Part shown: positions 684-63,940 of the stretch, one piece after another | Numbering within the stretch: the first letter of the stretch is position 1 | Layout of the letters: each line of letters starts with the position of its first letter | Translations under genes and position numbers: made by a program | Source of the DNA: Amphibalanus amphitrite | Taxonomy: Eukaryota; Arthropoda; Thecostraca; Balanomorpha; Balanidae | Length of the DNA stretch: 64,000 nt | Direction of reading: 5' to 3' | Assembly (NCBI RefSeq): GCF_019059575.1 | Contig: NW_024883380.1 | Location: 1-64,000, forward strand | Notes under the pieces: model-generated | Databases searched by the model: none | The model's input: only the letters and a program-made list of their open reading frames with translations | What the model was told of the DNA's origin: nothing

Positions 684-803
684 CTGTAAGACGGTTATAT
701 CCGTACGCTCCTCTCACCGCTCACCGTGTGTCTTTGCACCTCCAGCGTCCGTAAGACGGCTATATCTGCCCCCTACCCCTCACCGCCGTGTCTGCACCGG
801 CAG
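684..803 (+). repeat. Junction-copy minisatellite before PDS5 exon at 804
   Basis: The first bases of the exon (CGTCCGTAAGACGG from 804) recur upstream. One copy begins at 745, preceded by its own CAG acceptor at 742-744, and a more decayed one holds GTAAGACGG at 686. The spacing of the GTAAGACGG core is 65 then 58 bp, and the intervening text (CTCACCG, TGTCTNTGCACC) also repeats, so the unit spans the intron end plus the exon start. Confidence 0.7.
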
Positions 804-3800
804 CGTCCGTAAGACGGTGCAGGAGCTGCTGGAGCTGCACCGCACGCCCGTCTCGGAGGAGCGCGAGCGGGAGAAGGTGCTGCGCATCAACCACCTGTCC
901 AAGTTCCTGCCGGACCCGGTCAAGGCGCAGGAGTTTATCCGCAAGTTCTCACAGCACCTGGCGCAGGAGGAGTCGCTGCTGCAGCTCATGGAGACAGTCA
1001 TCAACCCGACCGTCTCCTGCCGGGAGAGCGTCGACAGCGTCAACATGGTGCTGAAGCGGCTGGGCCAGCCGGTGATGACCAACCTCTACTACAACACCAT
1101 CAAGCAGCTGCTGGAGCGCGTCTCGTCGGTGATGATCGACCACGACGCGCTGCTGGCGCTGGTCTCGATGGTGGAGGAGGCGGTGCGCGACCCGGCCTCG
1201 GCGCAGGAGCTCAACATCGAGCCGGGCGCGGCGGTGGGCCGCGGCCTGCGGCTGCTGTTCGTGCTGTCGTACGTGCAGGCGGCGCAGTTTCTGCACGCCG
1301 ACATTTTGGCCGTGCTGCTCGGCATGCTCCAGGTGAGCGACGAGGCGCGAACGAGGCTCTCCCGGGCAGGGAGAGTTGGGACGGGGAAGTCGGCCTGTAC
1401 GAGCATGTGATCGAGAGAGGCGTTAACAATGGGGTAGATCAGTTTTAAGTACTCACTACTCAGGCGATTTCCTTGTTATTGGCACACGTCCATGTCAATC
1501 TTATTTGCATGCCAATTAGTTACCAGTGGCTAGCTTCAAACATCCGCCTCACGTTCATGCCACATCCGGCTCTAAATGTTGTGCTTTATCAGAGCATTTT
1601 GTGTTCAGCCGCCCGTGATCTGACCCCTGTGAGCCGCCCGTGATCTGACCTCCACCGGCCCGTTTCTCCGCCCGCGGGGCAGACGGACGACGACACGGTG
1701 ACGCCCAAGGTGCTGGGCGTGCTGCACTTTGTGGGCAAGTACCGGCCGCTGGCGTCCGAGTTCCCCGATCTGATGGACAGCCTGGTGCCCGTCTGCCAGC
1801 AGCTGGCCACGGCCGGCTCGCCCAAGCAGGCCAAGCACGCCATCCGATGTCTGTTCGTCAACGTCACCGACAATCAGGAGGGCGTCTTCACCGAGATACT
1901 CGAGGTCAGTGACGAAGACTGGAGGCTGGAGGAGGAATGGAAGCTGTCGGAACGGGAACCAATTGTGGTGTTAGAATTGGCAATATAACATTTCCGCGTA
2001 TTCTGGTAGGAAGGCAGTGTGAACCTTTGTTCTACTAAACTCGTACTACCAACTACCGGCAGTGTGGTTCCGCGTGATTTCATGATCAGTGTGCTCGATG
2101 TTTCCTGTGATTTGCTGATTTTCTGTGCTACTCTCCGTCCGGGCCACCCATCTGACCACTCCGGTCTGGCCGCCGCAGCGTCTGAAGTCTGAGCTGGAGC
2201 TGGGCCACGAGCACTACCGCACGTCCATCGTGTCACTGGGTCACATCGCGCTCCACCTCTCCAACAAGTTCCCCATCCAGATCAAAAACATCGTCTCCAG
2301 GAAAATCGTCAAGGACCTCCTGATGCGGGTAAGTTGTCCACAGGTTCGAGGTAGTAGCGCGCTGAGTTTTGTGCCTTGTTGCTTCACTGTGCTTTAGGCA
2401 GCCATAGCCGTTTGTCTTTTCGGTGTGATGCATTTGCACGTTTTAGTGCGTTTCCTTGGGCTCAACCAACGCTGATTTGAACGCTTTTCTTTTACAATGC
2501 CTTAACTCTCGAGTTCCAACACGCTGCCCCATCTTGTTCCCTATCCCCCCCCCCCAACAAACAAACAATCTTGCTCACAAGCCTGGTATTACCGGACACC
2601 GAGCTGGACGGGATCTGGTGGGTGCTAGAATGGTGACGACTGACGAGCGGTGTGACCAGTCCCCTTGCCCCAGGGACCTGACCGGGCTGACAGACAGGGA
2701 GGTGTATGACAAGACCCCTTATCCCCCCCCCCCGCGACCTGGCTGCGAGTCCCCTCTGTCCCCTGCACCTAAGTACCCCTCTCCCCTCCAGGACCTGACG
2801 GACAGCGGGGAGGTGTGTGGCTAACCCCTTCCCCCTCCCTCCCTCCCCAGGACCTGACGGACTCCCCCCCCAGAACCTGAGGCCCCCCCCCCCAGGACCT
2901 GACGGACTCCCCCAGGACCTGACGGACCCCCCCCCCCCCCAGGACCTGACGGACCCCCCCCAGGACCTGACGGACAGTGACGAGTCCCCCCTCCCCCCTC
3001 TCTGTCCCCAGGACCTGACGGACAGTTGGGAGTCCCCTCCCCCTCTCTGTCCCCAGGACCTGACGGACAGCGGGGAGGTGTGTGATAAGACCCCCATTAC
3101 CCCTCTCCTCCCCCCTCTGTCCCCCACAGGACCTGACGGACAGCGGGGAGAGCGAGGAGGAGTGGTGTGACGAGGACGCTCTGCCCGAGGGCATCCGCTG
3201 CAAGATCGAGGGCATGAAGCTGATGGCGCGCTGGCTGATTGGCCTCAAGGACGACGTCATCTCGGCGCAGAAGACGTTCCGCATGCTGATCGCCTTCATC
3301 ATCCACCGCGGCGACCTTCTCGAGGAGGGCAAGGTCAAGTGAGTACAGCCGCGCTCCCCGAGGGAGGCAGTGCCTATCGCGATAAATTGTGATGTTTGTA
3401 CGAGTACCTACAGCAATCACTATCATGTGATTACGAGCGAGCGAGCGAGTTCATACTGAATTAAGGGTAAATCCTGAGTATGAGCGGCCGGCCGGCCGGC
3501 CGTGGGGACGCTCTTCAAAAGTTAATATCTTAGGAACGGGACATCCGATTGACAAGCGGTCTTCTTTACTGAATGTCACTTGGACGTAAAAGTTCTGTGG
3601 TGTGATGGCCACCATGCGTTCTTGCCAACCACCGCACGTGGCGTGTGGTAAAGTTGGACATTTTTTAAGAACCCCCAATTGTAACCTCAATAACGGCACA
3701 ACGGTTGGGCCGATTGAATTGAAACTCGGTACACAGTTAGATCTCCATCAGGTAGTTCATCTGCATGTGTTAAGGTTGGGGTACTACAGCACGTGCGCAC

Positions 3801-6800
3801 GTGCAGGGGGCGCTTCCAGATCTCGAGAACGGCTGGGCCGATTGCGCTCAAATTTGGTACACGGTTGGGGACCGGTTAGTAGGGTGCCGTGCAAAAGTCA
3901 GTTTGGACCCCGTTTGCACGTGCGCACGTGCAGAATGCCGCTTCCAGATCTCAGGAACGGCTGGGCCGATTGCGTTGAAATTTGGCACACCGCTAGCGAC
4001 CGGTTAGAAGGGTGCTTTGCGCAAGCCCGTTGGAAGTACCCTCACGTCCTTCCGCACGTGCAGGGCTCACTATCTCGCTCGCTCGTTCTTCGCCCAAAAG
4101 GCGTTTTACTGGTTGTTATGCTCTGTTTTGAATACTGCTGTCTTATGTCCAAACGTCCTAGCTCTCTCCGTTAGCCGTTACTGACCGGGGCCTCCGTTGC
4201 CTGTCGCCCATACCGACCCTGTGTCGGCCTGCCCGCCTCCGTCCTGGGAGTGAGCTGACGCCGCCCCGCCCCCGCCTACCGACAGTAAGCCGGAGGCGGC
4301 CTGGCTGCGCTACGCGGCCGGCGCCGCCATGCTGAAGATCTGCGAGCAGAAGGGCGTCGGCGACCAGTTCACTGCCGACCAGTTCTACAGTCTCTCCCTG
4401 CTGATGGCCGTGAGCTCCTTAAAACTTCACTAATTTATCTGTCGAGAAGTATTAAAATCACCACGGTAGCACGAAATAGGAACACCAAGAATGGGTGACT
4501 TTGCTTTTATACATTCTTTTCCTCGTTTTTGTTTTTCTCTTTCGCTTGTCATTTCTTGGGCATTGCAGTTACTACTGGGCTGCCTTTATAACGTGAAAAG
4601 GTATGAACGTTCGAGCAGTAATTCGCATGGATTTCTGTGGGTACGAACGCCGGTGAGCTCCTAGTACCACTGACTTCTCCAAACTCCCTTCCCTCCCTGT
4701 CTCCGCTCTGCAGGACGAGTGTCTCCAGGTGCGGGAGCGGTTCGCCGCCAAGCTGCACAAGGGCCTGAGCCGCGGCATCCCGCACAAGTGTCTGCCGCTC
4801 GACTTTATGGGCATGTACGCGCTGGCCGGCCAGGAGCCCGACAAGCGGCTCAAGGCCACCGTGCGTGGGTACATGGCCGCCGACATCCTGAAGCGCCGCG
4901 ACGTCATCAAGAGCCTGCTGCTCAACGGAGGGTGTGAGTCCGAGCAGGGAGATGGGGGGGGGGGGGGAGTTGAACCGGGCAGGGGGAGGGCCGGCCGGAG
5001 CGCACGATAATATCGGTAAAGTAATTGACTTGATAGGTTTTCCACACTTGCCAACCTGGTCCATCACAATCAAGTGCAATGCTCCTGCCAAGTGGCGTAT
5101 CTTGGCATTGCTGAAAGTCTTCGTGTAGCCGCCGAGAGCAGCATTCTCTCATTGCGTGTTCGCTGTCGGCACCGGTGGGCGTCTACCGATGGCTGGTCGG
5201 TGACCGTGTGTATTCAACCAGCTGCCCCGCAGCTAATAACTTGTCTCTGCTCTGATCGTACATGTGTCTGTGCCCGGCAGCGGAGCGGGCGGCCGACCAG
5301 CTGCCGCACCGCTAACGGCTTGTCTGTCTGTGACTGTGTTTGTGTCTGTGTGACCAGCTGTCCCATTGCTATTGGCTCCTCTGTGACCGTGTCTGTGTGT
5401 CTGGCAGCGGAGCGGGCGGCCGACCAGCTGCCGCACTGCTAACGGCTGGCCTGTGACCGTGTGTGTGACCGTGTCTGTTTGTATGTTTGTGTCTGGCAGC
5501 GGAGCGGGCGGCCGACCAGCTGCCCCATCCTAAGGGTTGGTATGTGACCGTGTGTGTGTCTGTGTGTCTGGCAGCGGAGCGGGCGGCCGACCAGCTGCCC
5601 CCTCCTGAGGGTTGGTATGTGACCGTGTGTGTGTCTGTGTGTCTGGCAGCGGAGCGGGCGGCCGACCAGCTACCGCACATCATGCCCGACTACATGCTGG
5701 TGTTCGCCGTGCCCATCCTGGCGCACGACCCCGACTTTACCGAGTACGACGACGTCGAGTACCTGACCAAGATCCGCGCCTGCCTCTGGTCAGTAGTTCA
5801 GTACACCGACAAAACCGGCCGCCAGCCTCTTCAAACGTGTCAAACCGTATGGCCTAAGCAGCCTATTTCTTTAGGATGCTCACAGGCCGGACGTTAATAA
5901 ATTTGTTTTGCTCGGTTATTGCATATACTTGCGGACAACCTGCAATATCTATCGTACGTTGTATTCACTTCTTTTTAGTTTTTAGCTTGATTAGGGACCT
6001 GAGGTCAGTTAGTTCCAAATCAGGTATTATGCCCAACGAACCGCGATGTCTTTCCGTCGTTATTTACTGTCTGATGGCGCGGTCCCATTCCCAGGTTCAT
6101 TCTGGAGCCGCTGATCACCAAGAACGACAACTACTGTTTCGGCTTCTACAAGGCGCTGGTGGAGCGGATGAAGAACCACCTGGACGCAGTGCGCAGTGAG
6201 GAGGAGGCCGCCAACCACGTGAGTGAGGGCGCGGCGCGGCTGGTAGCACAGCGGGGGGGGGGGTGAGGTGAGTGGAAGGGTTAGAGGGGGCTGTGACCAC
6301 CAGCGCCCAGGTATTCGGGAACGATCAGAGCCGAGTGGTGAAACTGGACTGACATCACCTTCCGCAGTGAGCGGGTGGGCGAGCTGGTGCCATATGGGCG
6401 TCTGTGCTATGTTGTGATTCATCCCGCATTATGTTCCCGGCACAATGTCCCGATGGTCGGTCCGGCAGAAACCGTGGGCCGTCTGACCTGTCCTGTCCGT
6501 CAGCAGAAACTGTGGACCGTCTGACCTGTCCTCTCCGTCCGCAGAAACTGTGGGCCGTCTGTGACCTGGCCTGTCCGTCCACATTAACTGTGGGCCGTCT
6601 GTGACCTGTCCTGGCCTGTCCGTCCGCAGAAACTGTGGGCCGACTGACCTGCCCTGTCTGTCCAGTGTCCGCAGAAACTGTGGGCCGTCTGTGACCTGTC
6701 CTCTCCGTCCTCAGAAACTGTGGGCCGTCTGTGACCTGTCCTGTCTGTTCGCAGAAACTGTGGGCCGTCTGACCTGTCCTGTCCATCCACAGAAACTGTG

Positions 6801-9800
6801 GGCCGTCTGTGACCTATCTCCGTCCGGCCGAAACTGTGGGCCGTCTGTGACCTGTCCTCTCCGTCCGCAGAAACTGTGGACCGTCTGTGACCTGTCCTCT
6901 CCGTCCTCAGAAACTGTGGGCCGTCTGTGACCTGTCCTGTCTGTTCGCAGAAACTGTGGGTTGTCTGTGACCTGGCCTGTCCATCCACAGAAACTGTGGG
7001 CCGTCTGTGACCTGGCCATGGGCCTGCTGCTCACCAAGACAACCAACTTCGAGATGCGCGAGTTCCCCTCGGAGCCGCGCATCCCACCCATGTACTTCCG
7101 CAAGCCGGCCGACCCCAACTTCGTCAACGGTGAGCTTTAGTAGACCAGCGCGTGCCGCAGGTTGGGGCCGACGATACTTTTTTTTGTATTACTGGCCTTA
7201 ATAAAGTTGTAGTTGTTGACATACGTATCAATTGTGCGTTCCGAAAACTGCAACGATACGTGGGGCTAATGTCTGAGTTTTCTGGCCGAATGTTACAACT
7301 AACTTCCGTCGATAACTGCAATATCTCCGTGTTTTCTGATTCACCCAGCGCTGCAGTCTGTACCGGCCCTCACCTGACCCGCCCCGCCCCTCCGTCACCC
7401 TCAGGGAAGATCTACCTGCCGCCCGAGCTGCAGCACCTGGGAAAGCGGAACAACATGGTGTCGATGGCGCACAGCCACAGCATGATCAACAAGCGCATCC
7501 AGCTGGCGCAGCAGATCCGCGCCTCCAAGGCCGGCGCCGCGGCGGCCGCCGCCGCCGCCACCGGGGGCGAGAAGGAGCTGACCCTGATTGTGCAGGAGTC
7601 GCCCGCCGCAGAGGTGCGTGTGGGGAGGGGAAGCCTTCACTGCCGGTAATCAGAACGCGCGAAAAGATTTTCCGAAAAGGGGGAGTTGGAACTGGCTGTT
7701 GTGTTGTTTCCCTCACTAGTTTTGCTATTCTTACGTAAAGACTTGTCAATAATGCGTGATTTTCTGCCGGTGGGGGCCCTAGCCAATGTTATTTTTACTG
7801 TTCGAATTACTGTGTCCGGGGATGCCTTAATCTATCGAGTTTTATGAGCGGACGAGCAGTAAAAGCTTAATTGCCTCAATCATGTAATGATTCACGGCAA
7901 CTGCATATTACCTCAGCATTTTTTTTTCTTTTTGAAATAACGCCAATAAAACGTATCGAACCCTGCGAAAAATAGACAGGCAACAATAGTTATCCGAGCA
8001 CACCGTGCTTTCCCGCAGCGGCAGGCTTCAGATGGGATCTGGTGTGTGACTATTTCGTCTGAATTGCTGTGACCCCCCAGTGTGAGTTGTGACCCTGTAT
8101 AACCCCCACTGACCCGTCTCTGTCCTCTGTGACCCCCCTCTGACCCGTCTCTGTCCTCCGGCTCAGGCGGAAACCGAGGAGGATTCTGCCGGCTCGGGGG
8201 CGGCGGCGGCGGCGGCAGCGCGACTGATTCGGGACCCTCCGGCCACCTACAGCCGGCGCGCCGCCCACGAGCGGGACAGAAACGACGACTGTGAGTGGAC
8301 CGGGGACGGGAAGGGACGAGGGAAATGTATGGAGAATTGGAGAGGATGCCGCTTAGGCGCTGGGTGACGTGCTGAGGCGTACCAGTCAGACGTGACCTGA
8401 TAGGTTTGTGTAGCTCAATATTTTGGCACACGTCTGTGTCCGCCCGTGTTGAATATGTGTTGGGATGCCCGTCTGGTTTCTCAGTTCTTTCCTCCAGTTT
8501 TATCTCATGGTTTCATCTAGTAATTGATCGCACATGCTCTTTGATGTTGAGCCAAATAAACTAAGCTAAAATAAATTTAACGGTCGGGACCTGTCGGGAG
8601 GTCATTGACCGAGTGTGTCTATGGCCCGTCCGTCTGAGCTGTTGTAGGTTACAGTGTCCGATCCCCATCCGCCTTTTGTGTCTCCGTCTGTGTGTCCACG
8701 TGTCTCTGTCTGTGTCTGTCTCTTAGACCGTCTCTATCTGTATGTCTGACCCGTTATATCTGTCTCTGAGACCGTCTCTATCTGTATGTCTGACCCGTAT
8801 ATATTTGTTTGCCGCAGCGGTGGATAGCGCGGCCGGTGGTGACCTGTCGGAGCAGTCATCGACCTTCTCAGACAGTCCTTCCAAGGACAAACAGGACAAA
8901 ATCACCAAGTAAGTACACTTAGACAGTCCTTCCAAGGACAAACAGGACAAAATCACCAAGTAAGTACACTTAGACAGTCCTTCCAAGGACAAACAGGACA
9001 AAATCACCAAGTAAGTACTGTCACCCAGTAAGTACACCTCCCGCAATTATTCCTCCAAGGACAAACAGAACAAAATCACCATGCAAGTTCCGAGGACAAA
9101 CAAGATAGAATCCAATGCTCTGAATGTTCTCGCGTGGGGGATTTCTCTCGAGTTGACGGCAGGAGTTGTATGTGATGTTAAGACTGTCCCCGCGGCGCCC
9201 AGCGGCTCGGTGCACCAGTTCTGACCTGCGGCCCGCCCCGGTCACAGCTACTTCAAGAAGGCGCCGCGGACGGCGTCCCCGACCCCGAGCAGTCAGCGCT
9301 CGACACGCAGCGGCCGCAGCGGCGACTCGTCGGCTGCCGGCGAGGAGGCCGGTCAGCGCGCCGCGCCGCGCACCACCCGCACCAGGGCGGCGGCCACCGA
9401 GGAGGCCGCCGAGGCGTCTGGGTAGGTGGCCACACTGTCTCTCTGTCCGTCCCCCTGTCCCCTGTGCCACTCGTATCTGTCCCCCCTGTCCGTCATGTGA
9501 ACGTGATATATTGTCCATCGGTAATTATTATTCATCCGCACGCTGTCGCCACGCTGAGACTAGAGATGTCAATCGGATACCAACTTTTTGGTATACCGAT
9601 ACCAAACCGATACCAACTTGGTATTTGGTATTTCAATCCTAATGTGTTTGGTATTTTGTTGGTATCATAAACCCTCACTAATGTATAAGAGGCTAAGAAA
9701 TCGGTAAAAAGTTGGTATTTCCCTCATTTTTCCAAGTTGGTTTGGTTTCGGTATTTCCCCATGGGTTTGGTTGGTATTTGGTTTGGTATCGGTATTCAGA

Positions 9801-10946
9801 TTTACCGTAATTGGCATCACTAGCTGAGACCCATGTTTGCTGTAGCGTCAGTTCTGACTCATCCCCTCTCTGGGCCGCGCAGATCTCGTTCTGTGAACGG
9901 TAAGCGGCAGGCGGCTGAGCCGGAGCCGGAGTCTGAGCCGGAGCCGGAGTCGGCCCGGCCGGCGGCCGCCGCCAAGAGGAAGCCGGCGCCGGCCGCCAAG
10001 CCGGAGCCGGAGGAACCGAGCCGCAAGTCGGCGCGACACGCCGCGCCAGCTCAGGAGGACGCGGTGAGTCCGGGCCGGCTGGCGGACTGGCCAGTCCGGG
10101 GCGGTTGTGGGGCCACACAGTGGGGGCTGTGGGACCACACAGTGGGGTGAAGTAGGACTGTGGGGACGAAACAGTCCGGGGGAAGGGGGTCACCTGTTGG
10201 ATGTTTGTGTCGAGGTGGCCTCCAATGGCGGCTTGGGATTATTTTCAAGTTATACTGCGCACGCGACCATGGTGTGGTGTTATTCACCATCGCAAAGCTA
10301 AGTGTGCACTTCAAGTGCCTTGTAGACTGAAGTGTTGCATTTCCACATTACTGGCTGGAGTGTAAACAGCTGGTGGAATTGGCCATTGTCAGAAATGGTT
10401 ACGTGGCAGGAGAGTTCCTGCTAGTGGTTTCTGTTCTAGAAAATGCTTGTTCAGCGATTCCAGTCGTAATGTGATTCGGTTGACGGCTGCCCGTCTGAAA
10501 TGTGTCGGGTAGATCCGAGTTTGCTGTTGGCCCGGGGTTGTCGGACAACTGACCCATGTTTCATCGTCTCATAAATAATATTATCTGCGTTCGAATTGTA
10601 AATGTCAAGTATATTTACATTCAATCGTTTTTACCTCTTACCCATTGGTGTGAAGTAAGCCTCAGAAAGGCTAACGATCGGACTTTCATGATCTAATAGA
10701 TTTCATATATGTACATAGGTCTTTTGACCATTTCTTTACGAATTATAAGTAATCACTGTACTGGGCAGAACATTGGAAGATGCGAAATTCGGATGCTGGT
10801 TTTCGGACGAAGGTCTGTCGTTATGTGCCAGTAATCCTGCGTTTCTCGTGCGTATGACGCCGTACCGCTGCAGGGCTCTGACCCCTCCCCCCTCCTGCCC
10901 GCAGGCCGCCGGAAAGAACACACGACTGACGAGGTCGCGAAAATGA
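804..10946 (+). CDS. PDS5: PDS5 cohesin-associated protein, C-terminal two thirds (15 exons)
   Basis: PDS5 is a HEAT-repeat protein that binds the cohesin ring in the nucleus and regulates loading, release and acetylation of cohesin. Exons by GT-AG boundaries: 804-1332, 1683-1904, 2179-2328, 3130-3338, 4286-4409, 4714-4933, 5650-5788, 6095-6218, 6991-7129, 7405-7613, 8167-8290, 8818-8908, 9248-9421, 9883-10063 and 10905-10946 (TGA at 10944). The phases agree at every junction, giving 891 complete codons after a 1-nt partial codon. Family-like stretches include LPDPVKAQEFIRKF, VKDLLMR, LHKGL and ILAHDPDFTEYDDVEYL, all in the order expected of animal PDS5. The tail (about the last 220 residues) is low-complexity and charged: an alanine run near 7546, then PEPESEPEPES, then a basic end RLTRSRK. 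This matches the family's disordered C-terminus. The start codon and N-terminal HEAT repeats are outside the window. Several introns carry tandem copies of their own splice junctions, annotated separately. A close paralogue is not excluded, but the family call is firm. Confidence 0.93.
2668..3129 (+). repeat. Tandem copies of the acceptor of the PDS5 exon at 3130
   Basis: The exon begins GACCTGACGGACAGCGGGGA after CAG. The preceding intron holds eight further copies of AG followed by GACCTGACGGA, with exon-like starts at 2792, 2851, 2896, 2916, 2943, 2964, 3012 and 3057, plus a diverged one near 2673. The copies are separated by C-rich, polypyrimidine-like spacers. Several also carry the next exon bases (CAGCGGGGAG), so the copied unit crosses the junction. 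Confidence 0.85.
3339..4285 (+). repeat. PDS5 intron with a diverged three-copy repeat
   Basis: Within this 947-bp intron a unit of roughly 140 bp recurs near 3695, 3825 and 3950. It shares GGNTGGGCCGATTG, AAATTTGGNACAC and the palindromic GCACGTGCGCACGTGC-type text, and looks like a short tandem duplication. A (GAGC)n-like tract and a run of GGCC lie at 3430-3500. No coding signal was seen. Confidence 0.5.
5215..5649 (+). repeat. Tandem copies of the acceptor of the PDS5 exon at 5650
   Basis: CAG followed by CGGAGCGGGCGGCCGACCAG, the first 20 nt of the real exon at 5650, occurs also at 5281, 5408, 5500 and 5575. Each copy has a GT-rich, T-rich tract and GGCAG in front, as the real acceptor has. 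The spacing becomes exactly 75 nt for the last three. Copies at 5281 and 5408 run into an in-frame TAA soon after. Copies at 5500 and 5575 are open and in frame with the real exon, so they could act as alternative acceptors adding 50 or 25 residues. Confidence 0.88.
6465..6990 (+). repeat. Thirteen tandem copies of the acceptor of the PDS5 exon at 6991
   Basis: The real exon begins AAACTGTGGGCCGTCTGTGA after CAG at 6988-6990. Copies with exon-like starts at 6468, 6507, 6545, 6584, 6630, 6675, 6715, 6755, 6793, 6831, 6871, 6911 and 6951 fill the intron at a period of 38-46 bp, mostly 40. Eleven keep the AG; those at 6584 and 6831 have lost it. Each copy has its own pyrimidine tract (CTGTCCGTCC-like). 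The 40-bp period breaks frame, so most copies cannot be used without a frameshift. Confidence 0.9.
8700..8815 (+). repeat. Short intronic tandem repeat before PDS5 exon at 8818
   Basis: Two copies of a roughly 46-bp unit (GACCGTCTCTATCTGTATGT then CTGACCCGT) precede the acceptor. Unlike the arrays upstream, the unit contains pyrimidine tract only and no exon sequence. Confidence 0.5.
8858..9120 (+). repeat. Tandem copies of the donor of the PDS5 exon ending at 8908
   Basis: The exon end and donor (AAATCACCAA followed by gtaagtac) is repeated downstream at a 51-bp period, giving donor-like sites after 8908, 8959 and 9010. A further decayed remnant lies near 9050-9110, where GTAAGT has become GCAAGT. 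The copied unit includes about 40 nt of exon (GACAGTCCTTCCAAGGACAA onward). The 51-bp period keeps frame, but the donor supplies an in-frame TAA, so using a distal donor would truncate the protein. Confidence 0.88.
9561..9822. mobile_element. hAT-type MITE in a PDS5 intron
   Basis: A 262-bp element whose ends are TAGAGATGTCAAT and ATTGGCATCACTA (imperfect inverted repeats). It is flanked by an exact 8-bp duplication, GCTGAGAC, at 9553-9560 and 9823-9830. The interior is built of short palindromic ACCAAC/GTTGGT and GGTATCGG motifs. The 8-bp duplication places it with hAT elements. It has no coding capacity. A relative lies at 36869-37128. Confidence 0.85.
10064..10904 (+). other. Last PDS5 intron
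   Basis: An 841-bp intron. Its 5' part repeats a GGGG-CTGTGGGACCACACAGTG motif over 10100-10160. The rest is unique, moderately AT-rich sequence with no exon or element that I can recognise. Confidence 0.5.
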
Positions 10947-11545
10947 GAGCGGCCGCCGTGATGGGACCTGAGCTGACGAGCGGCGCCCGCCGCGCTGCGC
11001 CCGCCGCGCCACTGTATGCCGTGCTGCGCCACTGTATGCCGCGCCGCGCCTGTTCCGTGCAACTGAGCGAGTTATGTTAAAGCGTACAAACTTCAGAGTG
11101 TTTTTTAATGCGCGCGCCGCCCCGCCCGTACCGAATACACACTGTCTGGGGCCGCGACTGCTGTCTCTGTCCGGTGTGTGGGGACGGGGGGGGGGCTGTC
11201 GGTCTGACAGGGGGTGGGTGGATGGGGTAGGGGAGGGGTCGGCACTCATCTCGGCCGCCGGTGTGACAGCGCCGCGCTGACGGCCGACTCGTCCGTCACA
11301 CGCGGCCCGCTCTCGGCGCCGGACGGAGTGGTGCGATCGGTCCAGTCTCGGCGGCGGGCGGAGTGGGACGACCCGGCTGGTCAGCGCGGCCGGGCCGCAC
11401 AGACACCGTGGCCGACAGCAGGGAGCGCCTGGCGCCGCCCAAACGGTGAGCGCTGCGAGCACAGAGGTGTGACGCTGCCGGGAGCGCCGCCAGCCCGCCG
11501 TCACCACCGCCGCCGCCGCCGCCGCCGCCGCCGCGGTCAGTCGCG
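10947..11545 (+). promoter_or_regulatory. PDS5 3' flank and CpG-rich promoter/5' UTR of the BTBD gene
   Basis: Only 599 bp separate the PDS5 stop from the BTBD start. There is no clear AATAAA after the PDS5 stop. From about 11230 the sequence becomes very rich in CpG, as in a CpG-island-like promoter. It ends with a (CCG)n tract at 11505-11535, just upstream of the ATG. A possible noncoding donor is present at 11449 (AAACG followed by gtgagc). No TATA box is evident. The promoter assignment is inferred from position and composition. Confidence 0.4.
11505..11535 (+). repeat. (CCG)n microsatellite in the presumed 5' UTR
   Basis: About nine CCG/CGC triplets in a row, ending roughly 10 bp before the ATG at 11546. 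Triplet tracts of this kind in a 5' leader are prone to length change and may affect translation. Confidence 0.7.
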
Positions 11546-14500
11546 ATGGACAATGGTGGGGCGGAGGCGGCCGGCGGCGGCGGACCCGAGCTGCTGACGG
11601 TGGGCTACGAGCGGTGAGCTGTCTGGTCGGAGCCGGCCCCGAGGGACCCCGGTCCGGGGAGGGAGCGCGGAGCTGCGGGCGGCCGGTAGTTACCGTGGTC
11701 CGGGGGAGGGGAGGGACGGAACCGCGGGCGAACCGGCAGCCCGGGGCCGGGGCCGGTCAGGGGAATGTGTGGGTCGGCGTCGCTGCTGGTCTGGTCTCGG
11801 CAGGAGAGAAGGGGAGGACTGGGGGCAGTCTGCTCAGGTAGACCCTCTGCCTGTCTGCGGCGCGCTGCTCTGGTCTGCTCAGTCGCCGCCGGCGCGGTAT
11901 GCCGAGACTGACAGCAGTAAATCCCAGGCCAAAAGGGAGGCCCGGGACTGCCTGTGACAGCTAGACAACTGAAATACGAGCGGTTACGCCCGACTGCAAT
12001 GTCACGCGGGCTAATGATCCGACAAAAGGAATGAGTAGGAGCAGTGTTAGAGCTGGTTCGGATTGTGTTGTCAAAATGGGGGGGGGGGGCGGCACGGATG
12101 AGGCAATGGAACTGCAATTTTTATTGTATATCTCGGATTTGACCGGAAGTCTAGCATCTCAAACAGTTCGAATTGAGCTATGTGTGTGTATCTGCTACCT
12201 ACTTCAACTCAACATTTTGAGTCTTTCGATGTGCCATTGGTGACGTCATTTAGGTTATATAAGGTCATCTCAGTTTTTGCCACCTATCCAAGAACAAGTT
12301 CAACTCAAGAGTCTGGAAATGTAGGTGACGACCACCAATGCGCTCAGATTGAACCGCAAATTCGAGTAACGTGCTACACGATACGTACAAAACGTCCGGT
12401 AGGGTTAGCGACTGGGCTTCGGTCGAAAATAATCAAAACTGACGTCTTGTGAAAACGCTCTTTCTGCAGTGACTTGACAAAAAAAAATGTTTAATAATGA
12501 TTTTACCAGCACCGCGCTGTTCTCATCGAGACGCATCAATTGAACGATCTTTCAGAGATAGTGTGACTTTTCCGGGACTCGCGAAGCCTATGGCCCACAC
12601 TATGGCACCGGTTAAGGTCCCTGGCCTGACAACAGTCGACGGTTGAAATGTCGCATTTAAATCCGGCGCTCATGACGGCCAATTCGCTCTTGTATGCAAA
12701 TTTACGTCAGATCGTAACAGCGAGGCTGCTGCTGACGGTTCATACCCCGCCCCCAGCCTCAAGGTAGGTATCCTGAATGTCTGAATGGGCCGGGCGAGAA
12801 TGGAAGCACCCTTTGATCGCGGGAGACGTGAGACAGACGAAGACGGGAGACGTGAGACGGACGAAGACGGAAGACGTGAGACGGACGAAGACGGGAGACG
12901 CGCCGTGAGTGTGACGAACAGTCGTGAGTCGCAGCAGCCGATGGCGCAGAATCTGTGCCACGGCTAAAGAAACGAGGTAAATGTGTGAGCACAGTGGTAA
13001 ACAACTGGACTCGGCATAAGCTTCAATTATTTACGCACCGTCATACCAGTACCAGTTGCCACGCGCAGCTTGGCAATAACTGCCCACGGTTTCGAGCAGC
13101 AGCGGACAGTCACCGCACAGCTTCAGTGTCACCGAACCGATGGGACCTCCCAGACCGTCCGCCCCCTTCTCTCCTCCCCATGACTCCCACTGTCCACCCC
13201 TTCCCTCCTCCCCATGACTGGCGCCGTGATGGCCCCAGGGTGCGGACGCGGCACCTCTCCCCTCTCCTATGACCGGCGCCGTGCCTCTCGGTACAGGGTG
13301 CGGACGCGGCACCTCTCCCCTCTCCTATGACCGGCGCCGTGCCTCTCGGTACAGGGTGCGGACGCGGCACCTCTCCCCTCTCCTAGTGACAGGCTCCGTG
13401 CCTCCCGGTGCAGGGTGCGGACGCGGCACCTCTCCCCTTCCCTATGACCGGCGCCGTGCCTCCCGGCTCCTGGTGCAGGGTGCGGACGCGGCACCTCTCC
13501 CCTCTCCTATGACCATTGACCCATGACGTGGCCGTCCCCCACAGGGTGCGGACGCGGCACCTCTCCCCTCTCCTATGACCGGCACCGTGCCTCCCGGTGC
13601 AGGGTGCGGACGCGGTCGCGATGCAGCATCGGCGCGCCATCCCCGGTCATCGGCGACGACTGGCGGTCAGCGTCGGTTCCGTTTCGGGAGAAGCTGCGCT
13701 ACCTCTACGAGAACCAGATCATGGTCGACGTCACCTTCCACCTGTACGAGCCGGTGAGACGGGCATAAGAGCCAGTGAGACGGGGTATATACGAGCCGCC
13801 AGCCGGTGAGACGGTGTACGGGGTTAGTTATTGTTAGTTATTAGGGTTACTTAAAAGTTATCAAACGGGTTAGTGATTGTTAGTTATTAGAGGTTGTTTA
13901 TTAGTTAGGTATTAAAAGGGTTAGTTATTGCTAGTTATCAGGGGCTACCTACTTATTAGTTGTTAGACGGGTTAGTTATTGTTAGTTATTAAGGGTTACT
14001 TATCAGTTCTATAACAGGTTAGTCGTTAGTTATTAGGGGTTACTGATTAGTTATTAGACGGGTTAATTATTATTCGGTACATGAAGTTATTAGACGGGTT
14101 AATTATTATTCGGTTAAATAATTATTCGGTTATTCGGGTTAAAGGGTTCGATTATTTTTTTTTTCTACCCCCCACTCGCACTTCGATTATTCTTTTCATC
14201 CCTCCCAGTCATGAGTATCTCTGAAGTCTTGTCCGTCTATCTGTCCGTCTGTCTGTCCGTCTGTCCGTCTGTTTGTCCGTCTGTCCGTCTGTATCTCCGT
14301 ATGTATGCATGCACAAATGTATGCGTGTTGCTGTATGTTTCAACGTGTTCCGAATCCGATGTTCGTAGTTGTCTACAGAATCGGTGTCGCCAACCTACTT
14401 GGAGTCCGGCGGCGGCGTGCTCCCATTGTTGGCGCGGCGGCCGTCCCGTGCGGCATCTGTCTTGTCCGGACGGCACGGGCGAGTCGGTGGCGGCAGCGCG

Positions 14501-17363
14501 GCCGGCCGGCCGGCTGACAGGGCTCGGCAAAAACCCCCGCCGGCCGCCGCGCCGCGCGGTCCGCGCGCCAAAATAGCTGTGCCACTGACCGGCAGCCCAG
14601 CTATTTCCTTGGCCTCCCCCCCCCCCGCCCGGCTGAGGGAGGGGGAGTATTCCTCGGGCCTCCCTTGGGAGGGGCGGGGAGGGTGCTGGCGACGTTCAAC
14701 CCGTGTGTTGTCAATTGCGTCTGATTTGGTACGGGTTATTTTTGGTCGCAGTGGGTCTGGGTAGTGGGTAGTGGGTAGTGGGTACGGACTAAACAGCTCA
14801 GGAGTGCTACGTTGGCACTACCTAACCGTGATCAGTTCTGAGAAACGGCGCAAAATCGCCGACATACTGGGCGCTGAAGCCATAGAACTCGGCGCCGATC
14901 AATACCCGGGTGCTGGTAAGGAGCGTTTCTGCCTCGAGCTTCTGGAAAGTACGGTAGCGGACAGGTAAGTACGCTCTCGCCTGGCCGGCTCTGCGGGCAG
15001 CTCCCAGGGAGCCGGTCTCACGACTCACCCCGGCTGGTCCGGCGCCGGTGCCCCGAGTCCCGTCACCTCCACTGACGGTGCAGCGGAGCGGGAGGCAGCC
15101 GCTGGTCTCACGACCCACTCAGTGTGGGTCCGGCGCCGGTATAGGTATCTATCCGGGGTCCCGCCGCCTCCACTGACAGTACGAGCGGGGCGGGGCGGGG
15201 AGGGAGGAGAAGCAGCCGCCCGCGTCACCGGCCACCGTTCATCACGGTCGCTGATCGGTGAGGCGACGGTCCGACACCTCCCTCCTGCCCAGCTGACGGA
15301 CCGGCACGGCGGTCCGACACCGGATGTGGCGGTCTGACACCTCCCTCCTGCTCAGCTGACCGGCCAGGTGACGGCCCGACACCCCCCTCCCTCAGCTGAC
15401 CGGCCAGGTGACGGTCCGACACCTACTTCTCCTCAGCTGACCGGCCAGGTGACGGTCCGACACCTAGGTACCTCTCCTCAGCTGACCGGTGAGGATATAG
15501 TCCGACACCTCCTCTCAGCTAACCTACTGACCATCTAACGCTGTATAGCGGCCCATCTAGTGTCCCTGAGTAACAGCCCGCGGTCTGCCTCCCCCAGCAG
15601 GCGGCGGGGGACGAGGCGCCCCCGGAGCGGCGGTCAGCGGTCACCAACGGTCACGGCGGGCCGTCGGACTCGGACTCTGACTCGGACTCGGACTCTGAGT
15701 CGGCTGACGGGCCGGCGCTGGTGGTGGGCGCCCACCGGCTGGTGCTCGGCATGGCCAGCGCCGTGTTCCAGAGCACCCTGTACGGCGGCCAGCCACCCGA
15801 GCGGCCGGTGGTCGTCAGGGACTGCGATCCCGGCACGTTCAAACTCATGATCGAGTGAGTACGGACCCACCGCGCCTGCTCAGGCGCTGCAGGTTAGACG
15901 TGCCAAATGGAACTGATGCGTCGGGAGCTAAACGCCAGCACTGGGGACTGGAGGTGAAACGAAAACACACTCAGGTCTCTTTGTTTGCGCCGAAAGCCTG
16001 CACTCAAATATATAAGACGGCATTAACCGCATTATCTAACCACATAATCTTAACAGCATTGATATTTTTCCTTATCAACGCTTTACTCTTTTAGCAGCTT
16101 CGTTCCACGATAATGTAACGTATCGTGTACAATGCTGGTTGCGCCGAGCTCTCCGCAGCCCCAGTGAGAGCGCGATGTCCCGACTGACCGCGTGACCTCT
16201 CCTGTGGCAGGTTCATCTACTCAGGCGAGTGCATCATCGCGTCGGTGGAGAAGGCGCGCGACATATTCCACATCGGTCGCGCCTACCAGTGCGCCGACCT
16301 GGTGCGCTACATCTCGCAGTTCGTGGCGGACGCGGTGCGCAGCTACCGGTTCACGCCGCTCACCTGCGGAAACCTGTTCTTCTTCCTGGAGTTCTCGCGC
16401 GAGGTGGCGGACTCCGAGCTGACTCAGCTCTGCTGGGGCTACGTTGACCAGTACGCGGCGCGCATCATCGGCACGCCCGACTTCAGCGGCCTCTCCAAGG
16501 ACATGGTGGCCACCATCCTGGACCGCGAGACGTTCGACGTCGGCGACGAGCTGGTCGTCTTCCTGGCGGTGAAGCGGTGGGGCGAGCACCAGCTGCGCGC
16601 GGCCGGTCAGCGCGCCCAGCACGAGACGCTGCGCCAGACGTGCGCCGACCTGCTGCCCTTCGTGCACATGGACCGCATCGACGAGAGCGACTTCGTCAAG
16701 ACGGTGCTGCCGTCGGGCCTGGTGGGGCCGCAGGAGCTCATCAGCTTCTTCATGGTGCGCGGCATCGAGATCCCGCGCAACATCGACCTGGGCGACAACC
16801 AGTCGGCCTGCCGCATGCTGATGGAGCCGCACCGGCGCCGGCCGCCGCCGCACGAGCGCTGCCTCCGCTACCGCGCCGGCTACAAGCTGGCCAGGGACGA
16901 CATGGAGGCGCTGCACGAGCTGCGCTTCCGCGCCGACAAGGACCTCCAGCTGGTGGGCCTGCACCTGGGCTATATCTTCAGCCAGATGGAGCTGGGCCTG
17001 ACGGTGCGCGTGCAGGGCCCGTTCGAGCGCGTCCAGTGGACGGACGCGTTCTCTCAGTACCACCGTGTGAGCGGCGACTGTGTGGGCGCGGCGCCGGCCG
17101 ACATGCGCGTGCTGTTCCACCAGCCGGTGGCCGTCGAGGGCGGCTGCTGCTACAAGGTGACCGTCAAGGTGGACCGCTGGAAGTACACCCAGAGCGACTT
17201 CAACATCTGGGGCGGCCAGAGCGGGCCCAGCCGGGTGCGGACGGACGACGGCCGGCACTTCTACTTCCTGCAGGCGGCCATCGAGAAGGGCCGCGACATC
17301 CGGTTCGCCGACATGAAGCAGTGTCGCGGGCTCATCACTGAGCTGCTCTACAAACCCGTCTGA
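11546..17363 (+). CDS. BTB-BACK-PHR domain protein (BTBD1/2/3/6 type), complete
   Basis: Proteins of this family use the BTB and BACK domains to bind CUL3 and act as substrate adaptors of ubiquitin ligases; the C-terminal PHR domain is a beta-sandwich. Exons: 11546-11613, 13603-13753, 15601-15854 and 16211-17363 (TGA at 17361). Phases agree, giving 541 aa, slightly above the usual 480-525. The BTB domain runs from about residue 42 (FREKLRYLYENQIMVDVTFHL) to 165 and is split by an insertion (residues 74-112) that includes a Ser-Asp run, SDSDSDSDSDSES. The BACK domain is at about 175-290. The PHR domain is at about 330-541 (LVGLHLGYIF, VRVQGPFERVQW, CYKVTVKVDRWKY). The start at 11546 is chosen because the first exon ends in the phase needed by exon 2 and no in-frame upstream ATG is seen. 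Exon 2 is bordered on both sides by tandem copies of its splice sites. The paralogue cannot be told from sequence alone. Confidence 0.9.
12821..12904 (+). repeat. 24-bp minisatellite in BTBD intron 1
   Basis: About 3.5 copies of GGGAGACGTGAGACGGACGA followed by AGAC. It lies about 700 bp before the acceptor array of exon 2 and contains no splice junction. Confidence 0.75.
13230..13602 (+). repeat. Tandem copies of the acceptor of BTBD exon 2
   Basis: The real exon starts GGTGCGGACGCGG at 13603 after CAG. The same junction recurs with exon-like starts at 13239, 13297, 13355, 13414, 13479 and 13545, at periods of 58, 58, 59, 65, 66 and 58 bp. Every copy keeps the AG. The unit also holds CACCTCTCCCCTCTCCTATG, a pyrimidine tract for the next copy. 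The real exon diverges after 13 nt (GTCGCGATG), so each array copy supplies only the exon start. Confidence 0.9.
13754..13816 (+). repeat. Tandem copies of the donor of BTBD exon 2
   Basis: The exon end and donor (GAGCCG followed by gtgagacgg) is copied twice downstream, giving donor-like sites after 13774 (GAGCCA then gtgagacgg) and 13805 (CAGCCG then gtgagacgg). Spacing is about 21 and 31 bp. Exon 2 thus has junction copies on both sides. Confidence 0.7.
13816..14160 (+). repeat. Degenerate TTAGTTATT-type tandem repeat
   Basis: Intron 2 of the BTBD gene carries some 340 bp built from GTTAGTTATTGTTAGTTATT and ACGGGTTA units in varying order. It is a simple AT-rich minisatellite with no coding sense. 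Confidence 0.75.
14226..14305 (+). repeat. CTGT/CCGT microsatellite
   Basis: A run of GTCTGTCCGTCTGTCC-type tetranucleotides about 80 bp long in BTBD intron 2. Confidence 0.75.
14995..15215 (+). repeat. Two-copy GC-rich repeat in BTBD intron 2
   Basis: A roughly 110-bp segment (GGTCCGGCGCCGGT, then CACCTCCACTGAC) is present twice, near 15020-15100 and 15105-15190, with moderate divergence. Confidence 0.55.
15235..15530 (+). repeat. CAGCTGACCGGCCAGGTGAC minisatellite before BTBD exon 3
   Basis: About seven degenerate copies of a unit of about 45 bp holding CAGCTGACCGGCCAGGTGAC followed by GGTCCGACACCT. The unit offers CAG acceptor-like and AGGTGAC donor-like motifs but does not copy exon 3 (15601), so it differs from the junction-copy arrays. 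Confidence 0.75.
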
Positions 17364-27791: not shown

Positions 27792-27793
27792 TA

Positions 27794-35860: not shown

Positions 35861-36149
35861 CAGACTTGTAAACGACTCAAAATTTTTTTGAGTCGATTGT
35901 TTGTTTGAGTCTGGAAATTTGAATCGATTCATCAAACGACTCATGATGTTAAATTTAATTGATTCGAATCAACTCATGACTCATCAAGTTCCTCGATAAA
36001 ATGATTCGAATCAACTCATGACTCGAGCAACTAGCCAACGGAATGATTCGAATCAACTCATGACTCACATTTTGATGAATCGATTCAAATCAACTCATGA
36101 CTCACACGACATTTTTATTGAACTTATTTCATTCAACCCATGACTCACT

Positions 36150-43528: not shown

Positions 43529-43529
43529 G

Positions 43530-48271: not shown

Positions 48272-48555
48272 GTCACCGTCGCCTTCCCGCCAAGGTAGGC
48301 CATAATGACCAAGGTCACGTATGTCAAACTAGTGGCAGCTTCAGATCGCAGTTACCGTGCGATCGTACTAACTTACTGCAAATTTGTGCTAACCTGCTGC
48401 AGTGGAAAACAAGTAAGTATTATGTCCGTGAAGTTAGCGTCAGCAACAACAACGAATACAGCGTCGGATTCAGAATCGCTCAAAAAACTCATATTCGGTA
48501 AATTGGGGGACGGGGAGCAAGAATATGACCTTTATTTGGCCCTAGCTTTTACCCC

Positions 48556-49430
48556 TTACCCCTTAATCGGCCCTTAAAGGAAGGGGCGCGTCAAAAGTGC
48601 CTCAAGGGTTCGTCTGATCGCCAAAATAAGGGTCGCAATCGATTCCCCGGGTTAATATCTAGCCGCAGCCTTGGGTTCCAGATGTGTGCAACTTACCCCT
48701 TACCCCTTAATCGGCCCTTGAAGGAAGGGGCGCGTCAAAAGTGCCTTAAGGGTTCGTCTGATCGCCAAAATAAGGGTCGCAATCGATTCTTCGGGTCAAT
48801 ATCTAGCCGCAGCCTCGGGTTCAAGATGTGTGCAACTTACCCCTTACCCCTTAATCGGCCATTAAAGGAAGGGGCGCGTCAAAAGTGCCTCAAGGGTTCG
48901 TCTGATCGCAAAAATAAGGGTCGCAATCGATTCCTCGGGTCAATATCTAGCCGCAGCCTCGGGTTCCAGATGTGTGCAACTTACCCCTTACCCCTTAATC
49001 GGCCCTTAAAGGAAGGGGAGCGTCAAAAGGGCCTCAAGGGTTCGTCTGATCGCATAAATAAGGGTCGCAATCGATTCCTTGGGTTAATGTCTAGCCGCAG
49101 CCTCGGTTTCCAGATGTGAGCAACTTACCCCTTACCCCTTAATGGGCCCTTAAAGGAAGGGGCGCGTCAAAAGTGCCTCAAGGGTTCGTCTGATCGCCAA
49201 AATAAGGGTCGTAATCGATTCTTCGGGTCAATACCTAGCCGCAGTCTCGGGTTCCAGATGTGTGCAACTTACCCCTTACCCCTTAATCGGCCCTTAAAGG
49301 AAGGGGCGCGTCAAAAGTGCCTCAAGGGTTCCTCTGATCGCAAAAATAAGGGTCGCAATCGATTCCTCGGGTCAATATCTAGCCGCAGCCACGGGTTCCA
49401 GATGTGTGCAACTTACCCCTAACCCCTTGA
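48556..49430. repeat. 144-bp satellite, six direct copies
   Basis: The motif TTACCCCTTAATCGGCCCTT recurs with TAATCGG ending at 48570, 48714, 48858, 49002, 49146 (one base changed) and 49290, an exact 144-bp period. Since 144 is divisible by three, an open frame can run through several copies (48682-49119). This is a by-product of the period and there is no evidence that it is translated. Confidence 0.9.
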
Positions 49431-49770
49431 GGCACTTTTGACGCGCCCCTTCCTTTAAGGGCCGATTAAGGGGTAAGGGGTAAGTTGCACACATCTGGAA
49501 CCCGAGGCTGCGGCTAGATATTGACCCGAAGAATCGATTGCGACCCTTATTTTGGCGATCAGACGAACCCTTGAGGCACTTTTGACGCGCCCCTTCCTTT
49601 AAGGGCCGATTAAGGGGTAAGGGGTAAGTTGCACACATCTGAAACCCAAGGCTGCGGCTAGATATTAACCCGGGGAATCGATTGCGACCCTTATTTTGGC
49701 GATCAGACGAACCCTTGAGGCACTTTTGACGCGCCCCTTCCTTTAAGGGCCGATTAAGGGGTAAGGGATA
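49431..49770. repeat. 144-bp satellite, inverted copies
   Basis: The same unit in opposite orientation, with CCGATTAAGGGGTAAGGGGT at 49462, 49606 and 49750, again exactly 144 bp apart. It forms the right arm of the palindrome. Confidence 0.9.
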
Positions 49771-50062
49771 AAAGCTAGGGCCAAATAAAGGTCATATTCT
49801 TGCTCCCCGTCCCCCAATTGACCGAATATGAGTTTTTTGAGCGATTCTGAATCCGACGCTGTATTCGTTGTTGTTGCTGACGCTAACTTCATGGACATAA
49901 TACTTACTTGTTTTCCACTGCAGCAGGTTAGCACAAATTTGCAGTAAGTTAGTACGATCGCACGGTAACTGCGATCTGAAGCTGTCACTAGTTTGACATA
50001 CGTGACCTTGGTCATTACGGCCTACCTTGGCGGGAAGGCGACGGTGACGCCAGCTTTACCGA

Positions 50063-50439: not shown

Positions 50440-50663
50440 GACTTGTAAACGACTCAAATTTTTTTTGAGTCGATTCTTTGTTTGAGTCGGAAATTTTGAA
50501 TCGATTCATCAAATGACTCATGATGCTAAATTTAATCGATTCGAATCAACTCATGACTCATCAAGTTCCTCGATGAAGTGATTCGAATCAACTCACGACT
50601 CATCGAAAAATGGTTTGATTCTGAGTCGATTCACGAATCAACTCAGAGTCGTTTACAAGTCTG
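50440..50663. mobile_element. 224-bp MITE-like unit at the right end of the hAT-like insertion
   Basis: Starts GACTTGTAAACGACTCAAAT, a direct near-copy of the left terminus at 35863, and ends with the inverted GAGTCGTTTACAAGTC. Both ends together make a compact inverted-repeat unit of GAATCAACTCA motifs. It lacks the first two bases (CA) on its left, and no CTTGGTAT lies there, so the duplication belongs to the outer borders. Confidence 0.7.
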
Positions 50664-50671
50664 CTTGGTAT

Positions 50672-51845
50672 AGAGAGATCGAAGATATCTCCTTACCATC
50701 CTGAGGGCAACGCAAAAGTGGAGAGATTGATGCGAACTATCATCTCCATGCTGGCGCGCTACTTGGATGAGAACCATGCAGAGTGGGACATCCATTTACC
50801 ACTGCTCATGCTGGGATACCGATCTCAAATTCACACTTCACTCGGGTATTCACCGTTTTTCCTTGTTTTCGGCCGGGAGCCACGCCTCCCCGCTGAGGTG
50901 AATGTAGAGCTCCCGCCCCATCGCAGAGCCGGGAATGTCGTTGAATACGTGGATTCACTGTGCGACAGTCTGCGTATTTCCCGGCAGTTTGGGATCGCGG
51001 CGTCCAACAGGCGTCATGAGCGGAACAAGAAGGCTTTCGAGAAAAAATTAAGCGAGTTTAACTTCCAGCCGGGCGACGGAGTTTATGTTTACAAGAATAT
51101 TGTGCCGAAGGGGCAATATTACAAATTTGTGCGCCCTTGGAAACCGGGCACAGTGCTGAAAAAGATCGGCGATGTCAATTACCGGGTTAAGATTCGTGGG
51201 ACAGGGAAGTCGATTTTGGTCCATCATAATCGGCTGAAACCCGATTCAGCGGCTTCATTCGGCGATTCAGGGAGCCCCCAGGTAGCTGACTATGCTGGAC
51301 AGCAGAGGGGCTCCACTCGCGATGCTGTCCCGGAGGGCACCGTGCCGACTCCTCAGATGACTCTGGGCGACGCTGCCAGGACTGATGACGTGCCGTTGGT
51401 CGGTGGCGCATCGGCGGTGGCGCCTTCCCTGGTCCGTGACGCTGCCGTTTCTGGTCCGTCCAACTCTGTTGAGATGGGGTCTGACCTGGCTGCTTCGCCG
51501 GTTGACGTTTTCGGCGGGCCCAACAGAGCGTCCCAGGGGACCAGAGTCGGGCTTGAGTTGGCTGAATCCAGTGTTGGGCGTGCTGGGCCATCTGTGGTAT
51601 CTGAGGACGGACCCAGAGAGCCCAGCGTGGGACCAGAGGATGATGACTCGGACGTGACCTCCGGGGTGGTTGCAGGGACTTCCTTAGGGGAGAGCGGTGA
51701 ACCGGGTCCCGTGGAAGGTGCCAGGGAGCGCGGTGAACCGGGTAACGGGGAGAGTCCCGGGGAGAGTGGGGAACCGGGTACCAGGGAGGGTCCCAGGAGA
51801 TCGGAGAGGAGACGAGCTCCCCCAGATTTCTTTGTTCCCGGTTAG
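50672..51845 (+). pseudogene. Gypsy integrase end and C-terminal tail
   Basis: Continues the integrase in the same phase after the insertion. The third catalytic residue lies in HPEGNAKVERL. It is followed by the GPY/F-like module (RPWKPGTVLKKIGDVNYRVK) and the HHNRLKP end. A 200-residue acidic, Gly/Pro-rich tail with GEPG repeats (51690-51790) ends at TAG 51843. No envelope gene follows. Confidence 0.85.
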
Positions 51846-54366: not shown

Positions 54367-54384
54367 AATCAGGGCACTAAACAC

Positions 54385-57742: not shown

Positions 57743-57939
57743 CATCAATATATATTATGTAATATATTATGTAATATACTATTACTGACATCATCAGAGC
57801 AAAACCCTAAAATAACTCATTGGATTCCTTTAATGGATGAGGATGGGCAAAGTACGTCTATATTCAGCAAAATATTTTTTTGTGTGTTCTTATCCTAAAA
57901 AGCCTTATTATGGATGTATAGGAACATCAAATAACTGCT

Positions 57940-58036
57940 TTTACAGGCCGTGCCGCCCTGGATGACCCGGTCGCAATAACTGTCGTTGCAGGCCGTGCTG
58001 CCATGGGTGACGCGGTCGCCGGTCATGTCTTTGCAG
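57940..58036 (+). repeat. Tandem copies of the acceptor of the first TRPC coding exon
   Basis: The exon starts GCCGTGCTGCCATGGGTGAC at 58037 after TTTGCAG. Copies with exon-like starts at 57947 (GCCGTGCCGCCCTGGATGAC) and 57992 (GCCGTGCTGCCATGGGTGAC) each keep their AG; the period is 45 bp. The 57992 copy also carries an ATG at 58003, in frame with the real one at 58048, so alternative acceptor use would add 15 residues. Confidence 0.85.
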
Positions 58037-58047
58037 GCCGTGCTGCC

Positions 58048-63857
<5,810 letters not shown>

Positions 63858-63940
63858 GTGAGTTCTGTCAGCGGCGGGCGCCGCGTGCTCTATATGAGTT
63901 CTGCCGGCAGTGAGCGCCGCGTGCTCTACACCAATGGTTT
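63858..63940 (+). repeat. Two-copy repeat just after the TRPC donor at 63857
   Basis: TGAGTTCTGTCAGCGGCGGG then CGCCGCGTGCTCTA is repeated once with small changes. The second copy starts TATGAGTT, where the first has the donor TGTGAGTT, so the GT of the copy has been lost or was never copied. Confidence 0.55.

Follow-up and report, generated by a model that had tools for sequence, protein, structure and literature searches.

The window analysed here is the whole of a 64,000-nt stretch (forward strand, contig NW_024883380.1) of the barnacle Amphibalanus amphitrite, whose assembly comprises 807.6 Mb in 2644 contigs. All or part of three unrelated genes is contained in it:

804–10950, forward strand: PDS5, a gene of sister chromatid cohesion, with 15 exons inside the window and the 5' part lying beyond its edge
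11546–17363, forward strand: BTB/POZ-BACK domain gene, 4 exons, protein identical to A. amphitrite LOC122375651
58037–63857, forward strand: TRP-gamma-like ion channel gene, first 8 exons

The PDS5 product is 81% identical to PDS5 of Pollicipes pollicipes, and the alignment of the two proteins shows no insertion at any of the 14 internal junctions of the model, being poorly conserved around two of them (7613 and 10063). The BTB model comprises 542 residues and agrees letter for letter with the NCBI protein, itself also a prediction; junction 13603 matches that protein. Acceptor 58037 lies upstream of the TRP-gamma ATG and was assigned from sequence alone.

Copies of splice junctions were sought with one 30-nt probe per junction (15 nt from each side), matched within 600 bp, for all 51 annotated junctions, of which 26 are acceptors and 25 are donors. 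Seven acceptors (804, 3130, 5650, 6991, 13603, 58037 and 63623) and a single donor (8908) have a second match within 5 edits of 30, and the best second match of the remaining 43 junctions had at least 8 edits of 30. After dinucleotide shuffling of the first 18 kb, repeated five times, no position came within six edits. The original prediction had claimed junction copies at no fewer than eight splice sites, and eight of the nine it listed stand at this threshold; the ninth, donor 13753, proved weak, with 9 edits of 30. The arrays and related repeats are as follows:

684–817, forward strand: acceptor array at PDS5 exon 804, located with the junction probe, left end set by eye
2660–3150, forward strand: acceptor array at PDS5 exon 3130, 8 of 10 decoys with AG, 5–21 exon nt copied
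5269–5671, forward strand: acceptor array at PDS5 exon 5650, 75-bp unit, 4 of 4 decoys with AG, 22–29 exon nt copied
6456–7014, forward strand: acceptor array at PDS5 exon 6991, 40-bp unit, 11 of 13 decoys with AG, 17–27 exon nt copied
8870–9088, forward strand: donor array at PDS5 exon end 8908, 39 exon nt copied
13236–13615, forward strand: acceptor array at BTB-gene exon 13603, unit of about 58 bp, 6 of 6 decoys with AG, 13 exon nt copied
13742–13818, forward strand: weak donor copies after exon end 13753, extent set by eye
57930–58060, forward strand: acceptor array at 58037, the start of the first coding exon of TRP-gamma, 45-bp unit, 2 of 2 decoys with AG, 24 nt of exon copied
63525–63635, forward strand: decayed acceptor copy before TRP-gamma exon 63623, one copy, AG lost
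63859–63928, forward strand: 36-bp repeat beginning right at the donor after exon end 63857, purely intronic

The extra copies, here called decoys, carry the end of the intron together with adjoining exon nucleotides, confirming the claim that the units span the boundary. Their number is 1 at 804, 10 at 3130, 4 at 5650, 13 at 6991, 6 at 13603, 2 at 58037 and 1, without AG, at 63623. Between 12 and 29 exon nucleotides are copied per acceptor decoy, the exceptions being two degraded decoys at 3130 (5 and 8 nt), and the unit measures 40–81 bp at the eight clear window sites. The 804 array, absent from the Tandem Repeats Finder (TRF) list, consists of one clear decoy 58 bp upstream, with 14 exon nt copied, and a partial older copy. 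At donor 8908, three 51-bp copies free of mismatches are accompanied by decayed ones; downstream of donor 13753 there are two more copies, with 4 and 5 edits in 22. Across 14 acceptors inside and outside the window, AG is retained in 59 of 69 decoys, a count that a junction-anchored probe can inflate, and the other dinucleotides of the decoys are retained in 71% of cases (1371/1932). Scored with a matrix built from these genes, true sites included, decoy acceptors come near the true site at 5650, 6991 and 13603, are mixed at 3130, and fall below it at 804, 58037 and 63623.

By eye, the eight clear window units have no sequence in common, as had been predicted, and an origin from one repeat family was rejected on this ground. 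The junction-spanning units are unalike and turn up in further genes elsewhere in the genome, which points to a process, not to a family of repeats, again in line with the original prediction.

Whether the junction itself is preferred was addressed with a scan blind to junctions, which returned 21 genic clusters; two outside introns (11006–11050 and 17377–17544) were excluded, leaving 19 intron arrays. Of the spanning clusters, the script marked five at acceptors and one at a donor, and two more (2783–3150 and 6465–7014), reaching 21 and 24 nt into exons, were added by hand; unit lengths and labels for the array-placement test were likewise entered by hand. Counted by array, 7 of 19 overlap an acceptor against 1.2 expected under random unit placement (P = 5e-5), and 1 of 19 overlaps a donor against 1.1 expected, all P values for the window being post hoc. 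Another six of the 19 lie wholly upstream of an acceptor, at a distance of 8–108 bp, and in 24 introns the share of sequence inside arrays is 30% for the last 50 bp versus 4% for the first 50 bp. Counted by position, such repeats take up 15% of the intron interior in the window, a background to which the spanning arrays themselves contribute, and about 1% of the exon interior. On this scale the acceptors (7/26) give P = 0.016 by rotation within gene blocks, 5 of 24 acceptors versus 2.8 for random points in the same introns give P = 0.11, and all junctions together (8/51, donors 1/25) versus 6.0 expected give P = 0.24. The C+T fraction is 0.60 at 20–60 nt before the 19 array-free acceptors versus 0.43 after donors. 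Short recurring words in array-free introns amount to 0.064 at 3' ends versus 0.054 at 5' ends, so small an excess that seeding by simple sequence is weakly supported.

A second sample was drawn from the same genome: protein-kinase matches with their surroundings, 16 stretches of 10 kb in all, picked from the match table blind to repeats, with exons predicted ab initio under stricter settings and only strong exons kept. Near copies were found at 5 of 93 acceptors, one of the five being a repeat inside an exon (L044; loci outside the window carry L numbers), and at 1 of 95 donors, and the feature is present in 4 of the 16 stretches. The array test covered stretches with at least two strong exons, so that L031 dropped out, and some long arrays (L035, L036 and L040) entered its count as two. 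Six of the 23 arrays extend over an acceptor versus 1.4 expected (P = 0.002), two of these overlaps, L038 at 2321 and L040 at 2788, being weak (10 edits of 32), and donors give 2 versus 1.4 expected. By position, the first ten stretches show no excess (4 of 60 acceptors versus 5.4% of intron bases). With L044 excluded, the kinase stretches alone show no significant difference between acceptors and donors (4/93 versus 1/95, P = 0.18); pooled with the window under the same exclusion, acceptors exceed donors (11/119 versus 2/120, P = 0.009), as they do once small loci are added (12/143 versus 3/141, P = 0.016, the L007 donor match included). The window is accordingly richer than average.

At five loci outside the window the unit length is 41–88 bp. 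In L036 the acceptor at 6848 lies inside a 73-bp array of ten copies, and the 45-bp array of L038, with nine copies, repeats what looks by eye like a conserved kinase motif. L034 and L035, being paralogues, do not count as independent cases. The only near-copy donor among the 95 in the kinase stretches lies near 9075 in L040, at the end of a predicted exon, where a unit of about 46 bp is present in nine copies; L048, tried as the counterpart of this array, gave no match. Separately, L014 (reverse strand) and L015 each carry, at 1388, two acceptor copies 45 bp apart, alike on both contigs and, by reading, just 5' of the start codon of a CDK9-like gene. In L018 and L019 the junction probe of these two loci missed even the true junction.

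The units thus span the acceptor, recur in unrelated genes and lie mostly towards the 3' ends of introns. The further claim that arrays are seeded at the boundary itself is partly supported, the answer varying with the yardstick: array counts favour it in both the window and the kinase stretches, and position counts set against the intron background do not clearly do so. An effect on splice junctions in general, as originally proposed, did not survive, because it is seen at acceptors only, donors being near or below expectation.

Many kinase loci sit on two contigs, and 11 such pairs are 93–99% alike in their flanks, as would be expected if both haplotypes were kept in the assembly. The PDS5 exons of the window match contig C801 at 98–100%, and the PDS5 arrays vary in copy number and composition between the two haplotype contigs. 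At acceptor 5650 the other haplotype has nine copies versus five in the window (intron of 1023 versus 716 bp), and at 3130 it has 13 versus 12 (948 versus 801 bp); the other three of the five PDS5 arrays (804, 6991 and donor 8908) have equal counts. Two decoys at 3130 on the other haplotype copy 57 exon nt and those in the window at most 21, which indicates that this junction was reworked differently on the two haplotypes. The decayed 63623 copy and the 804 decoy are present on both. The original prediction had named assembly error as one of two findings that could overturn it; an assembly artefact is unlikely where a second contig of the same assembly carries the repeats too, as it does the PDS5 arrays and the decayed 63623 copy. 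For the BTB array the comparison is partial, the second contig entering other DNA before the exon. In the comparison with L110, the PDS5 intron 3339–4285, which has no splice-site array, measures 256 bp on the other haplotype versus 947 bp in the window, a difference of 691 bp.

Copy number also differs elsewhere. L032 has seven acceptor copies versus one in its counterpart L047, with near-identical exon protein; L038 has nine versus three in L049; and L035 has four where its paralogue L034 has none at the matching acceptor. By substitutions, L032/L047 and L038/L049 are 88–94% alike, mostly below the flanks of the kinase pairs (93–99%), and may be divergent alleles or recent paralogues.

We favour, with a probability of about 70%, the explanation that these arrays arise by ordinary tandem duplication at pyrimidine-rich intron ends and are tolerated because the exon-side acceptor stays intact, the acceptor being a bystander. 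An array would start as a tandem duplication that includes the last part of an intron and the opening bases of the exon that follows, and pyrimidine-rich intron ends may be prone to such duplication, be it by slippage, by unequal exchange or by end joining. If it crosses an acceptor, a duplication would be harmless because the copy beside the exon retains the complete exon, so that normal mRNA could still be made and the upstream copies would become intronic decoys. Acceptor-spanning duplications would accordingly survive, and duplications inside exons would mostly be removed by selection; the array would afterwards grow, shrink and decay as any minisatellite does, the copied acceptor being a bystander of the duplication and not its target. 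As the logic of tolerance would be symmetrical for donors, the C+T-rich intron end is our preferred, modestly supported, reason for the acceptor bias. The exon-side acceptor probably outcompetes strong decoys, judging by the protein models. Exonic enhancers matter in splice-site competition, and decoys without most of the exon may lack them, which might let the last acceptor win. The fit of the exon-side junctions to Pollicipes PDS5 and to the NCBI BTB model, and the copy differences at 5650, 3130, L032/L047, L038/L049 and L035/L034, count in favour of the bystander explanation. So do the junction copies at 7 of 26 acceptors and 1 of 25 donors with none in shuffles, the array-level acceptor excess in both samples, the crowding of arrays at 3' intron ends and the higher C+T content there. 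Against it count the scant excess of short recurring words at 3' ends, the AG kept in 59 of 69 decoys, the scores near the true site at 5650, 6991 and 13603, positions not clearly above the intron background, and equal copy numbers in three of five PDS5 arrays.

A rival explanation is a process aimed at the acceptor, in which the 3' splice site would be a duplication hotspot, through transcription- or splicing-coupled breaks or triplex-forming polypyrimidine tracts, and the other intron-end repeats would be remains of junction-seeded arrays. We consider such targeting unlikely: arrays exceed expectation over acceptors about 6-fold in the window and about 4-fold in the kinase stretches with no excess over donors, and the unequal exon lengths copied at 3130 on the two haplotypes suggest repeated events, but position counts fail to separate the junction from nearby intron, and 6 of the 19 window arrays stop short of the acceptor. 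That the same counts reflect chance alone, intron minisatellites being common enough to hit splice sites without bias, appears decidedly improbable. The repeat content of window introns (15% of interior positions) and the 8 of 51 junctions agree with it; the acceptor–donor contrast (11/119 versus 2/120, L044 excluded), the array-level acceptor excess in two samples and the crowding at intron ends do not, and the spanning arrays make up part of the very background to which it appeals. That decoys are retained because they serve a function, for example in regulated alternative splicing or in slowing splicing down, is very improbable indeed. It could account for AG being kept more often than other dinucleotides (59/69 versus 71%, 1371/1932) and for the decoys that score near the true site, but the junction-anchored probe may inflate the former, haplotypes differ in copy number at 5650, the paralogue L034 manages without decoys, and several units (40, 58 and 73 bp) are not multiples of three, so that those decoys would shift the frame.

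A broader conjecture, possible but less likely than not, is that the 3' splice site itself is a recurrent duplication hotspot in A. amphitrite, with long decoy arrays ignored by the spliceosome and intron ends restructured on the time scale of haplotype divergence; other marine animals of high polymorphism would perhaps share it.

The class had been thought undescribed, which does not hold: amphioxus "mirages" are of the same kind, according to two reports (PMC3087553; PMC3902484), through which the original description (10.1093/nar/gkf386) is also known to us. These reports list mirages in Adh3, the globins BflGb6 and BflGb9, troponin C and PGBD5, the last added by PMC3902484, which also mentions troponin C; they report RT-PCR and somatic instability (the latter at Adh3), with regular mRNA splicing undisturbed. 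As described there, mirages resemble the barnacle arrays in being minisatellite-like tandem duplications across an intron/exon boundary, in keeping splice signals in many copies and in differing in copy number between haplotypes; they differ in host (a lancelet, whereas the barnacle arrays are crustacean and mainly at acceptors) and in unit length (150–160 bp in the amphioxus globins, 40–88 bp here). Four mirage features recur in the barnacle: tandem units of tens to about 160 bp (40–81 bp in the window, 41–88 bp elsewhere), a unit across the exon–intron boundary (7/26 acceptors, 1/25 donors and further loci), a splice signal in many but not all copies (AG in 59/69), and length variation between haplotypes (5 versus 9 copies at 5650, 12 versus 13 at 3130). 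On regular splicing the barnacle evidence is indirect, the exon-side junctions yielding the proteins expected for PDS5 and the BTB gene. Judged on the four sequence features, the barnacle arrays are placed with mirages as their counterpart.

Two other systems are also among the closest known. Human segmentally duplicated genes contain variable internal tandem repeats, some at exon–intron boundaries, with units averaging 30 bp and variation between gene copies (PMC2812944). Half of that set lies in coding exons, and its boundary repeats can form new introns or stay in transcripts, whereas the barnacle copies appear confined to existing introns. Introns can also be gained when exon segments bearing AGGT undergo tandem genomic duplication (PMC3443670; PMC4974935). 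Splice signals are likewise part of that duplication (PMC3443670), but there a new intron arises; in the barnacle existing acceptors are duplicated, no new intron was seen between duplicated motifs, and the junctions fit related proteins without added sequence. A literature search by titles and abstract openings, with most subscription literature outside its coverage, recognised no report of this feature from an arthropod, barnacles included. New here are the lineage (a crustacean), the acceptor bias and the allelic data.

A lancelet curiosity is thereby extended to an arthropod in which haplotype contigs differ in the number of near-identical acceptors. The arrays are natural experiments in the choice that the spliceosome makes among up to ten (L036) or fourteen (6991) similar 3' splice sites, and in how introns lengthen. 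They also trip gene finders: on the window genes an ab initio finder placed 34 of 54 exon edges correctly and predicted 58 exons versus 27, and decoys misled it into exon starts at 5500 and 6951, the true ones being 5650 and 6991.

The window holds several other repeats. An intronic 41-bp array at 15250–15489 has a unit with an acceptor-like CTCAG and a donor-like CAGGTGACGG, each unit resembling a tiny decoy exon. At 48549–49771, two tandem arrays with 144-bp units, one of 6.1 and one of 2.4 copies, adjoin, their units apparently reverse-complementary. By eye, a long open frame at 33018–35891 resembles a Ty3/Gypsy-type retrotransposon polyprotein, and another at 50625–51845 a second, integrase-end fragment. 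Positions 9590–9800 and 36896–37094 are rich in ACCGATACCAA / TTGGTATCGGT and have the look of a dispersed palindromic repeat, and many short runs of AGGTC/GACCT repeats are scattered through the intergenic DNA between 17900 and 58000.
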